Positions 44,260 through 52,951 of a stretch of DNA of 64,000 nucleotides are shown piece by piece. This stretch comes from Geothrix sp. 21YS21S-2. GTDB lineage: Bacteria; Acidobacteriota; Holophagae; Holophagales; Holophagaceae. How positions within the stretch are numbered: the first letter of the stretch is position 1; each line of letters opens with the position of its first letter. The stretch spans positions 2,266,001 through 2,330,000 of the forward strand of contig NZ_CP132910.1 of assembly GCF_030846775.1 (NCBI RefSeq), given 5' to 3'. A program made the position numbers and the translations under genes. The notes under the pieces are model-generated. The model had not been told where the DNA came from and searched no databases. It saw only the letters and a list, made by a program, of their open reading frames with translations.

Positions 44260-44718
44260 CTAGAGACCGCCCTTGTTTTCCAGGCCCGTCTCCAGGTTCC
44301 GGAGATGCGCGACCAGACCGTCCAGTTGCTCCTTGAGCGCCACCAGATCCTCCTCCGGGCAGCCCAGGGCCGCGAAGAGGGTCCCGGGGACGCACCCGCA
44401 CGCCTCCTTGAGGGCGGCGCCCCGGGGGGTGAGGTCCACCCGGACCACGCGCTCGTCGTCCAGACTGCGGGTGCGGGTGATGAAGCCGGACGCCTCCAGG
44501 CGCTTGAGGAGCGGGGTGAGGGTGTTGGTGTTGAGCAGGGCCCGGTCGCAGAGGCGCGAAACGGCGCACGGCGCGTCCTCCCACAGGATCATCAGGACGA
44601 TGTACTGCGGGTAGGTGAGCCCCAGCGGCTCCAGCAGCGGCTGGTAGAGCCGCGTCACGAGCCGCGAGGCGGCGTAGAGGGGAAAGCACAGCTGGCGTTC
44701 CAGGAGCAGGGGGTCCAT
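44260..44718 (-). CDS. ohrR: OhrR-like MarR-family regulator
   Basis: 152 residues. LLLERQLCFPLYAASRLVTRLYQPLLEPLGLTYPQYIVLMILWE is the OhrR N-terminus with Cys11 at the peroxide-sensing position (Cys15/22 in known OhrR). The winged helix shows NTNTLTPLLKRLEASGFITRTRSLDDERVVRVDLT. In OhrR this Cys is oxidised by organic hydroperoxides, releasing the DNA. It is the last gene of ohr-gpx-ohrR, 1 bp after gpx. Confidence 0.88.
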   Translation of the reverse strand: MDPLLLERQLCFPLYAASRLVTRLYQPLLEPLGLTYPQYIVLMILWEDAPCAVSRLCDRALLNTNTLTPLLKRLEASGFITRTRSLDDERVVRVDLTPRGAALKEACGCVPGTLFAALGCPEEDLVALKEQLDGLVAHLRNLETGLENKGGL

Positions 44719-44719
44719 G

Positions 44720-45205
44720 TCACCTTCCCAGGAGCTGCAGGATCGCCTTCTCCAGCCTCGCGGGGACGGTCGACGGCGCGTACCGCTTCACCGGCCGCCC
44801 TTCCCGGTCCAGGAGGAACTTCGTGAAGTTCCATTTCACGGCCTCGCTGCCCAGGACCCCCGGCAGGGCGCCGGTGAGCCACGTGAAGAGCGGGTGGGCC
44901 TTGGGGCCCTTCACCTCCACCTTCGCGAACATGGGGAAGGTGACGCCGTAGTTCAGCAGGCACCCGCCCGCGATGGAGGCCTCGTCCCCCGGCTCCTGCC
45001 TGCCGAACTGGTTGCAGGGGAAGCCGAGGACCACGAGGCCCTCGTCCCGGTGGTCCCGCCAGAGCTGCTCCAGACCGGCGTACTGGGGCGTGAAGCCGCA
45101 CTCGCTGGCGGTGTTCACCACCAGCACGACCTTGCCGCGGTACCGGGAGAGGGGGATCTCCTCCCCCTTCAGGGAGGTGGCCGTGAAGGCCTCGAGGCCG
45201 CTCAA
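44720..45205 (-). CDS. Glutathione peroxidase-family peroxidase
   Basis: 161 residues from a TTG that overlaps the Ohr stop. VNTASECGFTPQYAGLEQLW holds the peroxidatic Cys36, FPCNQFGRQEPG the conserved Gln (and a second Cys), and WNFTKFLLDREGRPVKRYAPS the Trp. Bacterial enzymes of this type usually take electrons from thioredoxin rather than glutathione. It reduces hydroperoxides, which matches the flanking ohr and ohrR. The TTG is chosen because a longer frame would run through Ohr in another frame. Confidence 0.87.
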   Translation of the reverse strand: MSGLEAFTATSLKGEEIPLSRYRGKVVLVVNTASECGFTPQYAGLEQLWRDHRDEGLVVLGFPCNQFGRQEPGDEASIAGGCLLNYGVTFPMFAKVEVKGPKAHPLFTWLTGALPGVLGSEAVKWNFTKFLLDREGRPVKRYAPSTVPARLEKAILQLLGR

Positions 45206-45618
45206 AGCAGCACCAGCTCCACCGGCACGTTGCCGCGCACGGCGTTGGAGTAGGGACACACCTGGTGGGCCTGTTCCATCAGCGACTGGGCCTGCTCCCG
45301 GGAGACGTCGGGAAGGAAGACCTCGAGCTTCACCGCAAGCTGGAAGCCGCCGCCATCCTTGGGCCCGATGCCCACCGTGGCGTCCACCCGCTGGGTGCCC
45401 AGGCGCACCTTGGCGGACCCGGCGACGAAACCCAGGGCGCTCTGGAAGCACGCCGCGTAGCCCGCCGCGAAGAGCATCTCCGGGTTGGGATTGGGTCCGC
45501 CCGGGCCGCCCAGGCCCTTGGGAAGGGCGAGCTGGAGGTCCAGGACGCCGTCGCTGCTGGTGACGCGGCCGGCGCGGCCGCCGTTGGCCGAAGCCTTGAT
45601 TTCGTACAGTGCGTTCAT
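45202..45618 (-). CDS. ohr: Organic hydroperoxide resistance protein Ohr
   Basis: 138 residues. MNALYEIKASANGGRAGRVTSSDGVLDLQLALPKGLGG is the N-terminal half, and Cys57 (AAGYAACFQSAL) and Cys121 (HQVCPYSNAVRGN) are the redox pair. Ohr is a lipoyl-dependent peroxidase for organic and fatty-acid hydroperoxides. A strong tandem palindrome lies 16-44 bp upstream. First gene of the operon. Confidence 0.95.
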   Translation of the reverse strand: MNALYEIKASANGGRAGRVTSSDGVLDLQLALPKGLGGPGGPNPNPEMLFAAGYAACFQSALGFVAGSAKVRLGTQRVDATVGIGPKDGGGFQLAVKLEVFLPDVSREQAQSLMEQAHQVCPYSNAVRGNVPVELVLL

Positions 45619-45633
45619 GGCGGGTCCCTTATA

Positions 45634-45662
45634 TATCGCAAGCGATTTAGTCGCTTGCGATA
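45634..45662. promoter_or_regulatory. Tandem palindromic OhrR operator
   Basis: A perfect 12-bp inverted repeat (TATCGCAAGCGA / TCGCTTGCGATA) with spacer TTTAG. Each half is nearly palindromic on its own (ATCGCAAGCGAT and TCGCTTGCGA), so two dimers could bind side by side upstream of ohr. Confidence 0.65.
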
Positions 45663-45786
45663 ACAATACGCCCCCCCACCGCCCTGTCAAGGCCGGCCTG
45701 CGGCCCCCCCTCTGCTAGACTCTGGAAAAACCCCGAGACGGACCCATGCAACCCATGCGACGACCTGTACCCGCGAGCCCGCGATC

Positions 45787-47727
45787 ATGATCCTGTACTG
45801 GACCGCTCTGGGACTCTCGGCCCTTTCGGGGATCCCGGGCCTCTTCCTCCCGCGCAAGGGCGGGGTCGCGTCGGCGGTCCTGCTCTGCCTGGCCGCGGTG
45901 GCGGGCCTCGCCGCCTCGGCGCGGGTCCTCTGCTTCGGCCTCGCGTGGAGCCAGGCCCTCCCGGCCACCCCCCTGGGGCCGGCGGGGTCGCTGGCCTTCG
46001 ACGCCGTCGCGGCCTTCTTCCTGATTCCGGTCGTGGCGCTCTCGGCCTGCGGCGCGCTGTACGGCGTCCGCTACTGGGAGGACCACCACGAGAACGCCCG
46101 CAGGCTGCGGCTGCTGCTGGGGATCCTGGCGGCCTTCACGGGGCTGCTGACCGCCGCCTCCCACATGGTCACCTTCCTCGTGGCCTGGGAGGGCATGGCC
46201 ATCGCCGCCTTCTTCCTGGTCACCACCGAGGACCGGGAGCCCGAGGCCCGACAGGCCGGGTGGCTCTACCTGGTCACGACCCACCTGGGAACGCTGTGCC
46301 TGTTCGGAGCCTTCGCCCTGACGGTCCCGGCCACCGGAGGCCTGGGCTTCGGAGCCCTACCCGGGGGCTTCGTCGCCAGCGGACGCGGCACGGCGGCCTT
46401 CGTCCTCTACCTGGTGAGCTTCGGCCTCAAGGCCGGGGCCCTGCCGCTGCACTACTGGCTGCCCCCGGCCCACGCGGCCGCGCCCAGCCACGTGTCCTCC
46501 TACCTTTCGGGCGTGCTCATCAAGACGGGGATCCTGGGCATGGTCCGGCTCCTTTCCTGGGTTCCGGATCCGCCGCTTTGGTGGGGCGGGGCCTGGGTGG
46601 CGCTGGGCGCCCTCTCGGGCATCCTGGGCGTGGCCCTGGCCCTGGGCCAGCACGACCTCAAGCGGCTCCTGGCCTACCACTCCATCGAGAACATCGGGAT
46701 CATCCTCCTGGGCCTGGGCCTGGGCACCCTGGGAAAGAGTACGGGGCACCCCGCCATCATGGTCCTGGGCTACGCGGGCGCGATGCTCCACGTGCTCAAC
46801 CACGGACTCTTCAAGGGCCTCCTCTTCCTGGCCGCGGGCTCGGCGGTGCACGCCACGGGCACCCGGAACCTCGAACGCATGGGCGGGCTCGCCCACCGGA
46901 TGCCCTGGACCTCCGGGGGCTTCCTGGCCGGGGCCTGGGCCATCTGCGGCCTGCCGCCCCTGAACGGGTTCGTCAGCGAGCTGTTCATCTACCTCGCCGC
47001 CTTCCACGCCCTGCCCCTGTCCCGCTCCCCCTGGCCCGCCGTGTCGCTGGCGTCCCTGGCCCTCATCGGCGCCCTGGCCCTGGCCTGCTTCGCCAAGGCC
47101 TACGGGATCGCCTTCCTGGGGATGCCCCGGTCCCCCGGGGCGGACCAGGCCCGCGAGGCGCCCCGGGCCATGCTGGCCCCCATGGGCATCCTGGCCCTGG
47201 CGTGCCTCGCCATCGGCCTGGCGCCGGCCCTGGCGGCCCCGGCCCTGGACCGGGTGGTGGCGGGCATGACCGGCTCGCAGGCCCTGCCCCGCCTGGGCAC
47301 CCTGGTGAACCTCCCCGCCCTCTCGATCCTGGCCGCCCTGCTCCTGGCGCTGGGCGCCCTCCTGTGGCGCTGGGCGGGACGGTCCCGCTCGGAGCGCGAC
47401 GTCCCCACCTGGGACTGCGGGTTCGAGGGGGGCACGCCCCGCATGCAGTACACCGCCTCCTCCTTCGCGGACGGCCTGGTCACGGGCATGCACTGGGCGC
47501 TGTGGCCCAAGGTCCACTGGCGCCGGCTCACGACCCTCTTCCCCTTCCCGACCCGCTTCGCCAGCCACCTGCCCGACCCGGTCCTGGACCGGGCCGGCAT
47601 CCCCCTCGCGGGCCTCGCGTCCCGCTGGCTGGAGCGGCTCCGGTTCTTCCAGGGGGGGCACCTTCCGGTGTACCTCCTCTACGTGATGCTCACCCTCATC
47701 CTCCTTCTCCTGTGGACGGCGGCATGA
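45787..47727 (+). CDS. HyfB/Ehr-like proton-pumping membrane subunit
   Basis: 646 residues and mostly membrane helices (about 16). The centre is the Proton_antipo_M antiporter domain (VTFLVAWEGMAIAAFFLVTTEDREPEARQAGWLYLVTTHLG, PLHYWLPPAHAAAPSHVSSYLSGVLIKTGILGMVRL, DLKRLLAYHSIENIGIILLGLGLG). The C-terminus WDCGFEGGTPRMQYTASSFADGLV is seen in HyfB/EhrA. Such subunits conduct H+ or Na+ in complex I and membrane hydrogenases. First of five overlapping genes. Confidence 0.86.
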   Translation: MILYWTALGLSALSGIPGLFLPRKGGVASAVLLCLAAVAGLAASARVLCFGLAWSQALPATPLGPAGSLAFDAVAAFFLIPVVALSACGALYGVRYWEDHHENARRLRLLLGILAAFTGLLTAASHMVTFLVAWEGMAIAAFFLVTTEDREPEARQAGWLYLVTTHLGTLCLFGAFALTVPATGGLGFGALPGGFVASGRGTAAFVLYLVSFGLKAGALPLHYWLPPAHAAAPSHVSSYLSGVLIKTGILGMVRLLSWVPDPPLWWGGAWVALGALSGILGVALALGQHDLKRLLAYHSIENIGIILLGLGLGTLGKSTGHPAIMVLGYAGAMLHVLNHGLFKGLLFLAAGSAVHATGTRNLERMGGLAHRMPWTSGGFLAGAWAICGLPPLNGFVSELFIYLAAFHALPLSRSPWPAVSLASLALIGALALACFAKAYGIAFLGMPRSPGADQAREAPRAMLAPMGILALACLAIGLAPALAAPALDRVVAGMTGSQALPRLGTLVNLPALSILAALLLALGALLWRWAGRSRSERDVPTWDCGFEGGTPRMQYTASSFADGLVTGMHWALWPKVHWRRLTTLFPFPTRFASHLPDPVLDRAGIPLAGLASRWLERLRFFQGGHLPVYLLYVMLTLILLLLWTAA

Positions 47728-48650
47728 TCGGGACGCCCGGGGTCCGGATCCTCCACGTGCTCCTCCAGGTGGTTTCCACCCTGGCGCTCTCGCCCCTCGT
47801 CCCGGGCCTGATCAACAAGGTCAAGGCCGTCCTTGCCGGACGCACGGGGCCCCCGGTGCTCCAGCTCTACTACGACCTGGCCAAGCTCTCCCGCAAGCGG
47901 GCCCTCTTCAGCCGCACCACCACCCCCATCTTCCTGGCGGGGCCCGTGGCGGCGGTGGCGGCGGTGCTCACCGCGGCCCTGCTGGTGCCCTTCGGTCACT
48001 TCCCGGCCCCGGTGCACTTCCAGGGGGACGCGGTGCTGTTCGTCTACCTCTTCGGGCTCGCGCGCTTCCTCACCATCCTCGCGGCCCTGGACACGGGCTC
48101 GAGCTTCGAGGGCATGGGCTCGGCCCGGGAGGCCACCTTCTCGGCCCTGGCCGAACCCGCCCTCTTCCTGGGCTTCGCGGCCCTGGCCAAGGCCTCGGGC
48201 AGCGTCTCCCTCTCGGACATGCTGGCTTCCCCGGGCTTCGGGCTCTCCCGCGCCATGGCCCCCTTCATCCTGGTGCTGGTGAGCTGGGCCATCGTCTTCC
48301 TGGCCGAGAACGCCCGGCTCCCGGTGGACGACCCCAACACGCACCTGGAGCTGACCATGATCCACGAGGCCATGGTGCTGGACCACTCCGGGCGGCCCCT
48401 GGCCCTGGTGCTCTACGGCGCCAGCCTCAAGCTCCAGGTGCTGGGGGCCCTGATCCTGGGGCCCCTCCTGCCGCGCACCCGCCACCCATGGCTGGACTGG
48501 GGCGCCTATTTCCTGGGCCTGGCCCTGCTCGCGGCGGGGGTGGGCGTGGTGGAGAGCGTCACCTCGCGCCTGCGCATGACCCGGGTGCCCCAGTTCCTCG
48601 TGGCCAGCGTGCTGGCCTCGGCCTTCGCCTTCCTGATCCTGCTGGTGTAG
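47724..48650 (+). CDS. HyfC/NuoH-like membrane anchor subunit
   Basis: 308 residues, start overlapping the previous stop (ATGA). It has about 8 membrane helices and the NuoH/HyfC motif [32 protein letters not shown], where acidic residues on the cytosolic side contact the peripheral subunits. [29 protein letters not shown] matches HycD/HyfC. It anchors the soluble redox arm to the membrane. Confidence 0.88.
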
Positions 48651-48653
48651 ACG

Positions 48654-49289
48654 ATGCTCTGCGACCTCCTCATCGCCCTGACGATGCTCACCAACTTCGC
48701 GCTGGTAACCTCCAGCCGGGTGGCGAAGGTGGTGCGGCTGGCGGTGATCCAGGGCATCATCCTGGGTTCGCTGCCCATCGCCATGGGCCTGGGCCGGCAT
48801 CCCCACATCCTGCTCATGGCGGTCAGCACCGTCGCCGTGAAGGGCTGGTTCATCCCCTTCCTCTTCCGCCGCGCCCTGAAGCAGGTGAAGACGCCGCGGG
48901 AGGTCGAGCCCTACATCGGGTACGGTACCTCGGTCATCTTCTGCGCCCTGGGGACGGCACTGAGCCTGATGCTGGCCCACACCCTGCCCCTGGAGCCCGG
49001 CGCGGCCCACCCCCTCCTGCTCCCCGCGGGGCTCGCCACCCTCTTCACCGGGTGCCTGCTCCTGGTGTCGCGCAAGAAGGCCCTCACCCAGGTGGTGGGC
49101 TACCTGGTGCTGGAGAACGGCATCTACCTCTTCGGCCTCATGCTCGTGGAGGAGATGCCGCTCCTGGTGGAGGCGGGCATCCTCCTGGACCTGTTCGTGG
49201 GCATCTTCGTCATGGGCATCGTCATCAACCACATCTCGGTGGCGTTCGACTCCATGGACACGCACCACCTGGCCAAGCTGAAGGACTGA
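48654..49289 (+). CDS. HyfE-like membrane subunit
   Basis: 211 residues and about 6 membrane helices. It fits HyfE (NuoK-like): MLCDLLIALTMLTNFALVTSSRVAKVVRLAVIQGIILGSLP, then ALTQVVGYLVLENGIYLFGLMLVEEMPLLVEAGILLDLFVGIFVMGIVINHI. The Glu in LENGIYLFG is the conserved charged residue of the family. Gap 3 bp upstream. Confidence 0.85.
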   Translation: MLCDLLIALTMLTNFALVTSSRVAKVVRLAVIQGIILGSLPIAMGLGRHPHILLMAVSTVAVKGWFIPFLFRRALKQVKTPREVEPYIGYGTSVIFCALGTALSLMLAHTLPLEPGAAHPLLLPAGLATLFTGCLLLVSRKKALTQVVGYLVLENGIYLFGLMLVEEMPLLVEAGILLDLFVGIFVMGIVINHISVAFDSMDTHHLAKLKD

Positions 49290-49293
49290 CGCG

Positions 49294-50721
49294 ATGGCCT
49301 GGTACCTCATCCTCCTCCCGCTCCTGGCCGCGCTCCTCGCGTTCCTGACGCCCAGCCCGGCGTGGCGGCCGCGGATCCTGCCGGCCACGGCGGTCCTCCA
49401 CCTGGGCGGGCTCCTGGCGGCCCTGCGCGGACCCCTGAGGCCGGGCGCGTGGCTCGCCCTGGATCCCATGGGCGGCTGGGTCCTCCTGGTCATCAGCGTC
49501 CTGTTCCTCCTCTGCGCCTGGTACACCCCGGCCTACCTGGCCCTGCGCCCCAACCGGGACAACCGGATCTTCATCACGTGCTTCCTCAGCTTCCTGGGCC
49601 TGGCCTCCCTGCTGGCCCAGGCCACCCATCCGGGCCTGGTGTGGGTGGCCATGGAGACCCTCACCCTGTCCACGGCTCCGCTCATCTACTTCAACAAGAA
49701 CCAGCGCTCCCTGGAGGCCGCCTGGAAGTACCTCATGATCGGCTCCGTGGGCATCGCCTTCGCCCTGCTGGGAACGCTGTTCATCGCCTACGCGGCCCAC
49801 ATGGGGGGCCTGCGGGAACCCCTCCGCTTCGACCGGCTCTGCCTGGAGGCCGCGCGCCTCTCCCGGCCCTGGCTGCGGGTGGGCTTCATCCTGAGCCTGG
49901 TGGGCTACGGCACCAAGATGGGCATCGCGCCCCTGCACACCTGGAAGCCCGACGCCTACGGCGAGACGCCCGGGGTCGTGGGCGCGCTGCTGGCCGGGGG
50001 CATGACCAGCTGCGCCTTCCTCGCCCTGCTGCGCGTCCAGACCGTGATGGCCGCCGCCGGGGAGGGCCCCTTCGCCCGCGGGCTCATGGTGGTGCTGGGC
50101 CTGGTCTCCATGGCCTGGGCCTTCGTCTTCCTGGTTCGCCAGGGGGACCTCAAGCGCATGCTGGCCTACTCCAGCGTCGAGCACATGGGGATCCTGCTCT
50201 TCGGCATAGGGCTGGGCGGACCCGCCGCGGCCTTCGCGCTCTACCACCTGGCCGCCAACGCCCTGGTGAAGTGCGTGCTCTTCCTCTCCGTGGGCAACAT
50301 CCACCGCTCGTACGATTCCCGCCAGCTGCCGTACGTCACCGGTGCCATCCGGCGCACGCCCGTGTCGGCCTGGCTCCTGCTCCTGGCCTTCCTGGCCATC
50401 ACCGGCACCCCGCCCTTCGCGCCCTTCGTGAGCGAGTTCAACCTGGCCCTGCTGGCCCTGGGACCGGGCCGGACCTGGCCGGGGCTCCTCTTCCTGATCC
50501 TTCTGGCCGGAGTCTTCCTCGCCATGAGCGACACGCTGGTGAAGGTGGTGTTCGGGGCGCCCAGCCGCGAGCGGGCCCGCACCCCCTACCGGGACACCTT
50601 CGGCACCACGGCCCCCCTCATCGCCGCCCTCGCCCTGGCCCTGGTCATGGGCCTCTGGCTGCCGAGCCCCCTGGCTTCGATGCTCCGGAGCTCCGCGGCC
50701 CTGCTGGAGGCGCGCCCATGA
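49294..50721 (+). CDS. HyfF-like proton-pumping membrane subunit
   Basis: 475 residues with about 14 helices and an antiporter-type centre (WVAMETLTLSTAPLIYFNKNQRSLEAAWKYLMIGSVGIAFALLG, KMGIAPLHTWKPDAYGETPGVVGALLAGGMTSCAFLALLR, DLKRMLAYSSVEHMGILLFGIGLGG). Corresponds to HyfF/EhrD and is paralogous to the first gene. Conserved Lys and Glu residues indicate a working ion channel. Confidence 0.87.
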   Translation: MAWYLILLPLLAALLAFLTPSPAWRPRILPATAVLHLGGLLAALRGPLRPGAWLALDPMGGWVLLVISVLFLLCAWYTPAYLALRPNRDNRIFITCFLSFLGLASLLAQATHPGLVWVAMETLTLSTAPLIYFNKNQRSLEAAWKYLMIGSVGIAFALLGTLFIAYAAHMGGLREPLRFDRLCLEAARLSRPWLRVGFILSLVGYGTKMGIAPLHTWKPDAYGETPGVVGALLAGGMTSCAFLALLRVQTVMAAAGEGPFARGLMVVLGLVSMAWAFVFLVRQGDLKRMLAYSSVEHMGILLFGIGLGGPAAAFALYHLAANALVKCVLFLSVGNIHRSYDSRQLPYVTGAIRRTPVSAWLLLLAFLAITGTPPFAPFVSEFNLALLALGPGRTWPGLLFLILLAGVFLAMSDTLVKVVFGAPSRERARTPYRDTFGTTAPLIAALALALVMGLWLPSPLASMLRSSAALLEARP

Positions 50722-52172
50722 CCCTGCAGCCCTTCCGCAACGGGCAGAGGCTGCCCCTGAAGGAGATCCGGGACCTCCGGTGGCCGGACTTCCGGGAGGC
50801 CGTGGTCCAGGGGCTCACCGGCGGCGCGCGCCTGGCCTGCCTCTGCGCGGACGGCGACCTCAACCTCTACGCCGTCCTGGCCGAGGACGGCCACGGCCGG
50901 CTCCTGGCGGGGCGCACGCACCTGGACGGCCCGCGGTATCCGGCCTTCACGCCGAGGTTCCCCCAGGCCCACCTCTTCGAGCGGGAGCTGGCCGAGCACG
51001 GCGGCATCGTCCCGGAAGGCCATCCCTGGCTCCAGCCCGTGCGCGAGCCCCGGCGCCACGCGTACTACCACACCAGCGGGGAGGAGGTGCACGAGGTCTC
51101 GGTGGGCCCCGTCCACGCCGGCGTGATCGAGCCGGGCCACTTCCGCTTCCAGTGCCACGGCGAGAAGGTGCTCCACCTGGAGATCGTCCTGGGCTACCAG
51201 CACCGCGGCGTCGAGCGCGCCCTGCTCGGGGGCCCGCACCCCCTCAGCCTGAAGCACGCGGAGACCGCCGCCGGGGATTCCTCCATCGCCCACGGGTGGG
51301 CGCACTGCCGGATCCTGGAGGCCCTTTCGGGCGCCCAGGTGCCGCCCCGCTCGGACCTGGTGCGCGGCGTGGCCCTGGAACTGGAGCGGGCTGCGAACCA
51401 CACCGGAGACCTGGGCGCCCTGGCCGGGGACGTCGGGTTCCAGCCCACCTCCGCCCTCTGCGGGCTGGTGCGGGGCGACTGGCTGAACCTTACCGCGGCC
51501 GTGTGCGGCAGCCGCCTGGGCCGGGACTGGCTGCGGCCCGGGGGCCTGCGCATGGACCTGGAGCCCGGCCGCGCCCGGGCCCTGGCCCCGCGCCTGGCCG
51601 GGGTGTGGGCCGAGACGCGGCAGGCCGTCCAGCTCCTGTGGGACGCCGCCTCGGCCATGAACCGCTTCGAGGCCGCCGGAGCGCTGGATCCCATCGCGGC
51701 CCGGGAGATCGGCCTCGTGGGGGTCCCCGCCCGGGCCTGCGGCCTGGACCTGGACGTGCGCCGGGACCACCCCTTCGGGCCCTACGGGCTCCGCCCCGTC
51801 GTCCCCGCCCTGGCGCAGAGCGGCAACGTCTTCTCCCGCGCCTGGGTGCGGTGGCTGGAACTGGCTGAAAGCCACCGCTTCATCGACGAGGGCCTGGCGG
51901 CCCTCGCGGAGCTCCCCTGCGATCCGGCCCCGGCCCCCCCGCCGGCCCTGGAGCCCGAGAGCTTCTGCGTGTCCCTGGTGGAGGGCTGGCGCGGCGAGGT
52001 GCTCCACCTGGCCATCACCGACGCCCGGGGCCGGTTCCGCCTCTACAAGCTCGTCGACCCCTCCTTCCACAACTGGATGGGCCTGGCCCTGGCCATGCGG
52101 GAGGGCCAGATCTCGGACTTCCCGCTGTGCAACAAGAGCTTCAACCTCTCCTATTGCGGGCATGATCTCTGA
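50718..52172 (+). CDS. Ehr/HyfG-like large subunit without complete NiFe ligands
   Basis: 484 residues. Residues 1-110 resemble the NuoC-like segment; 115-484 are NuoD/HyfG-like (HVGPVHAGVIEPGHFRFQCHGEKVLHLEIVLGYQHRGVERAL). At the first NiFe position, where hydrogenases read ERVCGIC..AH, this protein has ETAAGDSSIAH: Ala185 and Ser188 replace the two Cys. Near the C-terminus the second CxxC is not kept (SFNLSYCGHDL has one Cys). It should therefore not bind NiFe, as in the energy-converting hydrogenase-related (Ehr) complexes. No small NuoB/HyfI-like subunit gene follows. Confidence 0.82.
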   Translation: MTLQPFRNGQRLPLKEIRDLRWPDFREAVVQGLTGGARLACLCADGDLNLYAVLAEDGHGRLLAGRTHLDGPRYPAFTPRFPQAHLFERELAEHGGIVPEGHPWLQPVREPRRHAYYHTSGEEVHEVSVGPVHAGVIEPGHFRFQCHGEKVLHLEIVLGYQHRGVERALLGGPHPLSLKHAETAAGDSSIAHGWAHCRILEALSGAQVPPRSDLVRGVALELERAANHTGDLGALAGDVGFQPTSALCGLVRGDWLNLTAAVCGSRLGRDWLRPGGLRMDLEPGRARALAPRLAGVWAETRQAVQLLWDAASAMNRFEAAGALDPIAAREIGLVGVPARACGLDLDVRRDHPFGPYGLRPVVPALAQSGNVFSRAWVRWLELAESHRFIDEGLAALAELPCDPAPAPPPALEPESFCVSLVEGWRGEVLHLAITDARGRFRLYKLVDPSFHNWMGLALAMREGQISDFPLCNKSFNLSYCGHDL

Positions 52173-52201: not shown

Positions 52202-52951
52202 ATGCTGCTCGCAGGACGCACCATCCTCGTCACCGGCGGAAGCCGGGGCATCGGCGCCGCCACCGCGCGCCGTCTCGCCGGCCACGGCGCCGCCGTCGCG
52301 GTGAACTACGCTTCCAACGAGGCAGCGGCCCGCGGCGTCGTTGAAGCCATCACGGCCGCGGGCGGCCGGGCCGTCGCCATCCAGGCCGACGCCCGGGACC
52401 CCGTCCAGGTCGAGGCCCTTTTCAGGCAGGCCGAGGCCGCCCTGGGCCCCATCGACACCCTGGTGCTCAACGCCAACATGAGCTTCCCCGTGGCCCTCTT
52501 CACCGCGATGCCCTGGGAGGGGTTCCAGCAGAAGCTCCTGGGCGAGCTGGCCTCGGCCTTCCACGCGTGCAAGGCGGCGGTGCCCGGCATGATCCAGCGG
52601 CGGAAGGGCTGCATCATCGCCGTGAGCAGCGGCCTCTCCCGGCAGCCCGGGGAGGGCTTCTCGGCCCACACCACCGCCAAGTCGGGCCTGGACGCCCTGA
52701 TGAAGTCCCTCGCCCTGGAGCTCGGCCCCCACGGCATCCGGGTGAACGTCGTGGCCCCCGGCCTCACGGAGACCGACGCCACCGCCCACTTCCCCGAGGC
52801 GGCCAAGACCGCCGCGGGAAGCCGGCTGCCCCTGAGGCGCATCGGCCAGCCCGATGACGTGGCGGGGATCATTGCGCTGGTGGCCTCGGACGAGGCCGGG
52901 TACCTCACCGGCCAGTACCTGTCCGCCGGGGGCGGCGGGATGATGCTCTAG
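52202..52951 (+). CDS. SDR-family oxidoreductase with His in place of catalytic Tyr
   Basis: 249 residues from the ATG at 52202 with CAGGAGGC upstream. Rossmann motif TGGSRGIG (11-18), LNANMS in place of NNAG, and PEAAKTAAGSRLPLRRIGQPDDVAGIIALVASDEAGYLTGQYLSAGGG at the end are typical of FabG-like SDRs. The active site reads VSSGLSRQPGEGFSAHTTAKSG: Lys160 is kept but the usual Tyr is His156. It is 29 bp after the Ehr operon and ends 1 bp from the converging transporter. Role unknown. Confidence 0.85.
   Translation: MLLAGRTILVTGGSRGIGAATARRLAGHGAAVAVNYASNEAAARGVVEAITAAGGRAVAIQADARDPVQVEALFRQAEAALGPIDTLVLNANMSFPVALFTAMPWEGFQQKLLGELASAFHACKAAVPGMIQRRKGCIIAVSSGLSRQPGEGFSAHTTAKSGLDALMKSLALELGPHGIRVNVVAPGLTETDATAHFPEAAKTAAGSRLPLRRIGQPDDVAGIIALVASDEAGYLTGQYLSAGGGGMML

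Follow-up and report, generated by a model that had tools for sequence, protein, structure and literature searches.

A predicted Ehr-type operon without an adjoining EhrS gene in Geothrix sp. 21YS21S-2

Can an operon for an Ehr (energy-converting-hydrogenase-related) complex that does not encode the iron-sulfur subunit EhrS still give rise to a working complex? Ehr complexes lack NiFe-coordinating residues and are suspected of linking redox reactions with the translocation of charge (PMC6349859). Proteomics has revealed the Ehr complex of Geobacter sulfurreducens, EhrS included; its role, by the account given there, had never been investigated (PMC7894505; also PMC8691401). In the window analysed here, a stretch of 64,000 nucleotides of the Geothrix genome, an earlier note made from the sequence alone had described an Ehr-like, ion-pumping complex whose NiFe ligands are lost and whose small subunit is missing.

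Gene content and the large subunit

Positions 45787-52172 hold five intact open reading frames, overlapping or closely spaced, in the order B-C-E-F-L (Table 1). Their Pfam and NCBIfam matches, with PF00361 found twice, PF00146 once and a HyfE-like subunit once in the membrane part, bear out the four membrane subunits and the large subunit in HyfB-C-E-F-G order that the earlier note had listed. None of the scores reached the curated cut-offs that NCBIfam sets for genuine subunits of hydrogenase-4 or complex I. By its sequence, the locus is an Ehr-type operon, hereafter Ehr1, and its retained antiporter-like subunits suggest that the complex may pump ions.

Table 1. Predicted genes and sites of the Ehr1 locus and its left and right flanks, in window positions
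Feature	Position	Strand	Evidence
ohrR-like marR gene	44260..44718		
Glutathione-peroxidase gene (gpx)	44717..45190		
Ohr peroxiredoxin (ohr), left flank of insertion site	45202..45690	-	TIGR03561 above cut-off
Inverted repeat, candidate OhrR operator	45634..45662		
EhrB1, HyfB/NuoL-M-like antiporter subunit, 646 aa	45787..47727	+	PF00361; NCBIfam hydrogenase 4 subunit B E=1.6e-152, under curated cut-off
EhrC1, HyfC/NuoH-like membrane subunit, 308 aa	47724..48650	+	PF00146 E=3.1e-30
EhrE1, HyfE-like membrane subunit, 211 aa	48654..49289	+	NCBIfam hydrogenase 4 membrane subunit E=3e-23, under curated cut-off
EhrF1, HyfF-like antiporter subunit, 475 aa	49294..50721	+	PF00361; NCBIfam hydrogenase 4 subunit F E=9.4e-82, under curated cut-off
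EhrL1, HyfG/HycE-like, NuoC+NuoD fusion-type large subunit, 484 aa, without NiFe Cys ligands (A185, S188)	50718..52172	+	PF00329, PF00346; best solved relative HycE 7z0s_E (sequence and fold)
SDR-family oxidoreductase, flanking gene outside the complex	52202..52951	+	Gene arrangement in related genomes (see text)

Apart from S, the subunit set of Ehr1 is that of known Ehr complexes such as G. sulfurreducens GSU0739-0745, and the NiFe ligands are likewise lost (PMC6349859, PMC7894505). EhrL1 also carries the C-terminal DFPLCNKSFNLSYCG motif, which is conserved in the Ehr loci examined. However, Ehr1 has no EhrS gene and contains one HyfB-like gene, whereas family orthologs have two. The order B-C-E-F-G is shared with formate hydrogenlyase and hydrogenase-4 (HycE, HyfG; PDB 7z0s), which provide the closest solved large-subunit relative, but the NiFe cysteines, the small subunit and an adjacent formate dehydrogenase or ferredoxin gene are absent from Ehr1. 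The subunits are homologous to those of respiratory complex I (NuoCD, NuoH, NuoL/M/N), and the position of HycE Ser283 is Asn in EhrL1, as in NDUFS2 (PMC9474812); unlike complex I, Ehr1 includes no NuoB/NuoI or NADH module.

A tree of 51 sequences without a non-Ehr outgroup places EhrL1 among the Ehr large subunits, as sister to the Ehr1 L of another Geothrix genome, G004 (98/91), inside the Ehr1 set of the family (100/100). EhrL1 is homologous to group 4 large subunits without the four Cys ligands of their NiFe site. As the earlier note had read them, A185 and S188 occupy the positions of HycE Cys241 and Cys244, and the closer alignment to HycE did not recover the four-Cys site. However, the loss is nothing particular to Ehr1: a set of 122 Ehr large subunits has Ala (95), Ser (16), Cys (10) or Val (1) at position 185 and Thr (93), Ser (23) or Ala (6) at position 188, so the missing ligands are a trait that defines the Ehr family generally, and they were rejected as a special feature of this locus. 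The claim of a single cysteine near the end was mistaken, since there are two, C471 and C480, kept in 122/122 and 121/122 Ehr L proteins, respectively; an ungapped alignment to HycE places neither of them at a ligand position and pairs HycE Asp529 with Asn476. The quinone-site Tyr of complex I is presumably Gly in Ehr, by motif reading. HycE residues E193, H284, R395, E437 and R478, named as proton-pathway residues (PMC9474812), are all retained, as E138, H228, R339, E381 and R425. An AlphaFold model of EhrL1 (mean pLDDT 82.9) has HycE as its nearest relative by fold, with a TM-score of 0.80 by query length. Its low-confidence segments (106-146 and 470-484) include conserved motifs, and our guess is that they might become ordered only through contact with a partner. 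EhrL1 is also about 18 residues shorter at residue 109, in the NuoC/NuoD linker, than most family orthologs, and it has a cluster of changes at residues 242-250.

Missing terminal genes and the flanks of the operon

That no small subunit stands next to L held true: no EhrS/HyfI/NuoB-like gene adjoins EhrL1, and none occurs in any frame over the following 11.8 kb or in the rest of the window, so a hidden or nearby EhrS was rejected. PF01058 matches lie at five other places in the genome (one contig, 5.25 Mb). The one located at 2,414 kb represents an EhrS that has the cysteines of the ferredoxin-type clusters and of the proximal cluster. Judged by sequence and surroundings, the remaining four resemble one Mbh-like group 4 subunit, two NuoB proteins of complex I and a periplasmic-type hydrogenase small subunit. 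Conservation of the gap, which the earlier note had suggested checking in relatives, was found in none of them: EhrS directly follows L in 118/118 other Ehr loci whose sequence extends far enough beyond L, while three more loci left no room to judge. Of the 322 matches among genome contigs, the best 80 entered this set, in which two or more sequences occur twice. The local absence of EhrS is thus a real exception, the only one in a sample of 119, and because EhrS is not encoded with L, we regard Ehr1 as a variant rather than a regular Ehr member. A limited literature search found no report of an Ehr without S, and no close copies above 60% identity were found on plasmids.

The 5' end of the operon differs as well. 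A further HyfB-like gene precedes B in 10/10 family orthologs whose contig reaches far enough; before EhrB1 there is none, the opposite-strand ohr comes next, and no remnant was recognised by eye in the upstream sequence. With this gene and EhrS both absent, Ehr1 lacks both terminal genes. The Ehr2 operons of the genus, including that of this genome, likewise have a single B.

The SDR gene starts 30 bp after EhrL1, behind a 29-bp spacer with an AGGAGG-like ribosome-binding site. It does adjoin L, as the earlier note had said, but it did not take the place of the small subunit: in G002, a genome of the same genus, the DNA matches of ohr and SDR are separated by 107 bp that hold no Ehr gene, which makes the SDR a flanking gene, and it was rejected as a replacement. 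The ohr and SDR proteins of G002 are 85% and 92% identical to those of the window, and the two are collinear over bioB, the marR-type gene, MFS and lacI. The sequence upstream of SDR differs in G001, G003 and G004. The Ehr1 block, missing from G002, may have been either inserted in its own lineage or deleted in G002. Among six genomes of the genus, an Ehr1-type L was found only in this one and in G004; two of the four without it are incomplete.

Two further observations concern the left flank. Between ohr and EhrB1, near the ohrR-like marR gene, lies a perfect 12-bp inverted repeat, TATCGCAAGCGA-N5-TCGCTTGCGATA, a candidate OhrR operator with a possible effect on the Ehr1 operon as well. A gpx gene sits between the marR gene and ohr; it is missing from G002, where the marR-type and ohr matches are about 18 bp apart, and therefore represents another gain or loss at the same locus.

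A complete second operon and the evolution of Ehr1

The genome-wide search for EhrS/HyfI-like genes proposed by the earlier note revealed an intact EhrS2 in a complete B-C-E-F-L-S operon, Ehr2, located 96 kb downstream (L006:7674-14892). A small-subunit gene, whose presence in another frame or just outside the note had named as a case against its reading, is thus absent beside L and present at the genome level. The L of Ehr2 is 57% identical to EhrL1 and is followed by EhrS2, in which all cluster cysteines are present. EhrS2 is about 61-68% identical to the S proteins of Ehr1-type operons in the family, which makes cross-binding plausible. The same genome has an Mbh-like group 4 locus (L007) with NuoB-like, NuoH-like and antiporter-like genes.

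Ehr1 shows no obvious sign of being a pseudogene. Its frames are unbroken over 6.4 kb, and near-invariant positions, defined from about 95-122 Ehr sequences, are kept almost throughout (L 129/131, B 71/73, C 58/59, E 19/19, F 54/55), and most of the exceptions are mild substitutions (L→M, Y→F, A→S, L→I, K→Q, L→Q). GC3 of EhrB1 and EhrF1 is 0.96, matching neighbouring genes; synonymous sites were too diverged for a firm dN/dS value. The end branch of EhrL1 is 0.32 vs 0.14 for G004. When changes in Ehr1 and in its nearest ortholog, that of G004, were counted at sites where six outgroups agree (five genes, Bonferroni limit 0.01), EhrL1 was accelerated (27 vs 7, p=0.0008) and was the only gene to pass the limit; EhrF1 showed a weaker acceleration (23 vs 8, p=0.011), EhrC1 a tendency (17 vs 9, p=0.17), and EhrB1 (18 vs 17) and EhrE1 (12 vs 8) none. 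At 40 L positions diagnostic for Ehr1 or Ehr2, EhrL1 has no Ehr2-type residue and eight of neither type, compared with one and one in G004. A shift of EhrL1 toward Ehr2-type residues as an adaptation to EhrS2 was thereby rejected, and the faster evolution of EhrL1 fits relaxed constraint no less well than it fits an adaptation to EhrS2.

Possible states of Ehr1 and their meaning

The best single mechanism, for which we put the chance at a little below even, is that the Ehr1 proteins still form an Ehr complex with a borrowed EhrS. The five proteins would assemble with EhrS2 from the operon 96 kb downstream; EhrS2 would pass electrons through two ferredoxin-type clusters and the proximal cluster to the EhrL1 pocket without NiFe, and the reduction of an acceptor in this pocket would power the movement of ions through the NuoH-like and the antiporter-like subunits. 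The open frames, the near-invariant and proton-path residues kept, GC3, the completeness of Ehr2 and the similarity of EhrS2 to Ehr1-type S proteins argue for such sharing, while the acceleration of EhrL1 and its departure at 8/40 diagnostic residues, against 2/40 in G004, argue against it. The latter observations also suit an early relic, which comes close behind and which the present data do not separate from sharing: Ehr1 could, with appreciable but lower probability, be a partial operon copy that lacks an iron-sulfur subunit, has no useful activity and has only just started to drift. Besides the faster L, the somewhat faster F and perhaps C, and the eight lost diagnostic residues, the absence of both terminal genes is consistent with decay, and Ehr1 is dispensable because 4/6 genus genomes examined (two incomplete) show none. 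However, a relic has to be reconciled with 6.4 kb of unbroken frames, with near-invariant residues almost all retained, with B and E that are not accelerated and with high GC3 in B and F.

It is rather improbable that Ehr1 works without any EhrS, either as a redox-free, Mrp-like antiporter or channel or with another NuoB-like partner, for example that of the Mbh-like group 4 locus. Although the antiporter-like and NuoH-like subunits are intact and another group 4 type small subunit is encoded at 1,035 kb, L retains the conserved active-pocket positions, which a pure antiporter would not be expected to need, the Mbh-like small subunit matches just the C-terminal half of EhrS (39%), and EhrS is missing from none of the 118 other loci. 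An assembly or strain artefact is very unlikely: the gap was seen in one genome only, from one strain of the species, but this genome is a single contig, the L-SDR junction is clean, with its spacer and ribosome-binding site in place, and, beginning at the SDR, the right flank runs collinear with that of G002.

Ehr complexes are widespread, and no tested function was described in the literature found in a limited search. With a likelihood just short of one half, Ehr1 would represent a working Ehr-type complex without an iron-sulfur subunit of its own, implying either an EhrS shared by two paralogous complexes or a redox-free ion transporter. A natural Ehr copy without the electron-input subunit, beside a complete one in the same genome, offers a handle on the role of EhrS and on whether the membrane part can work without it.
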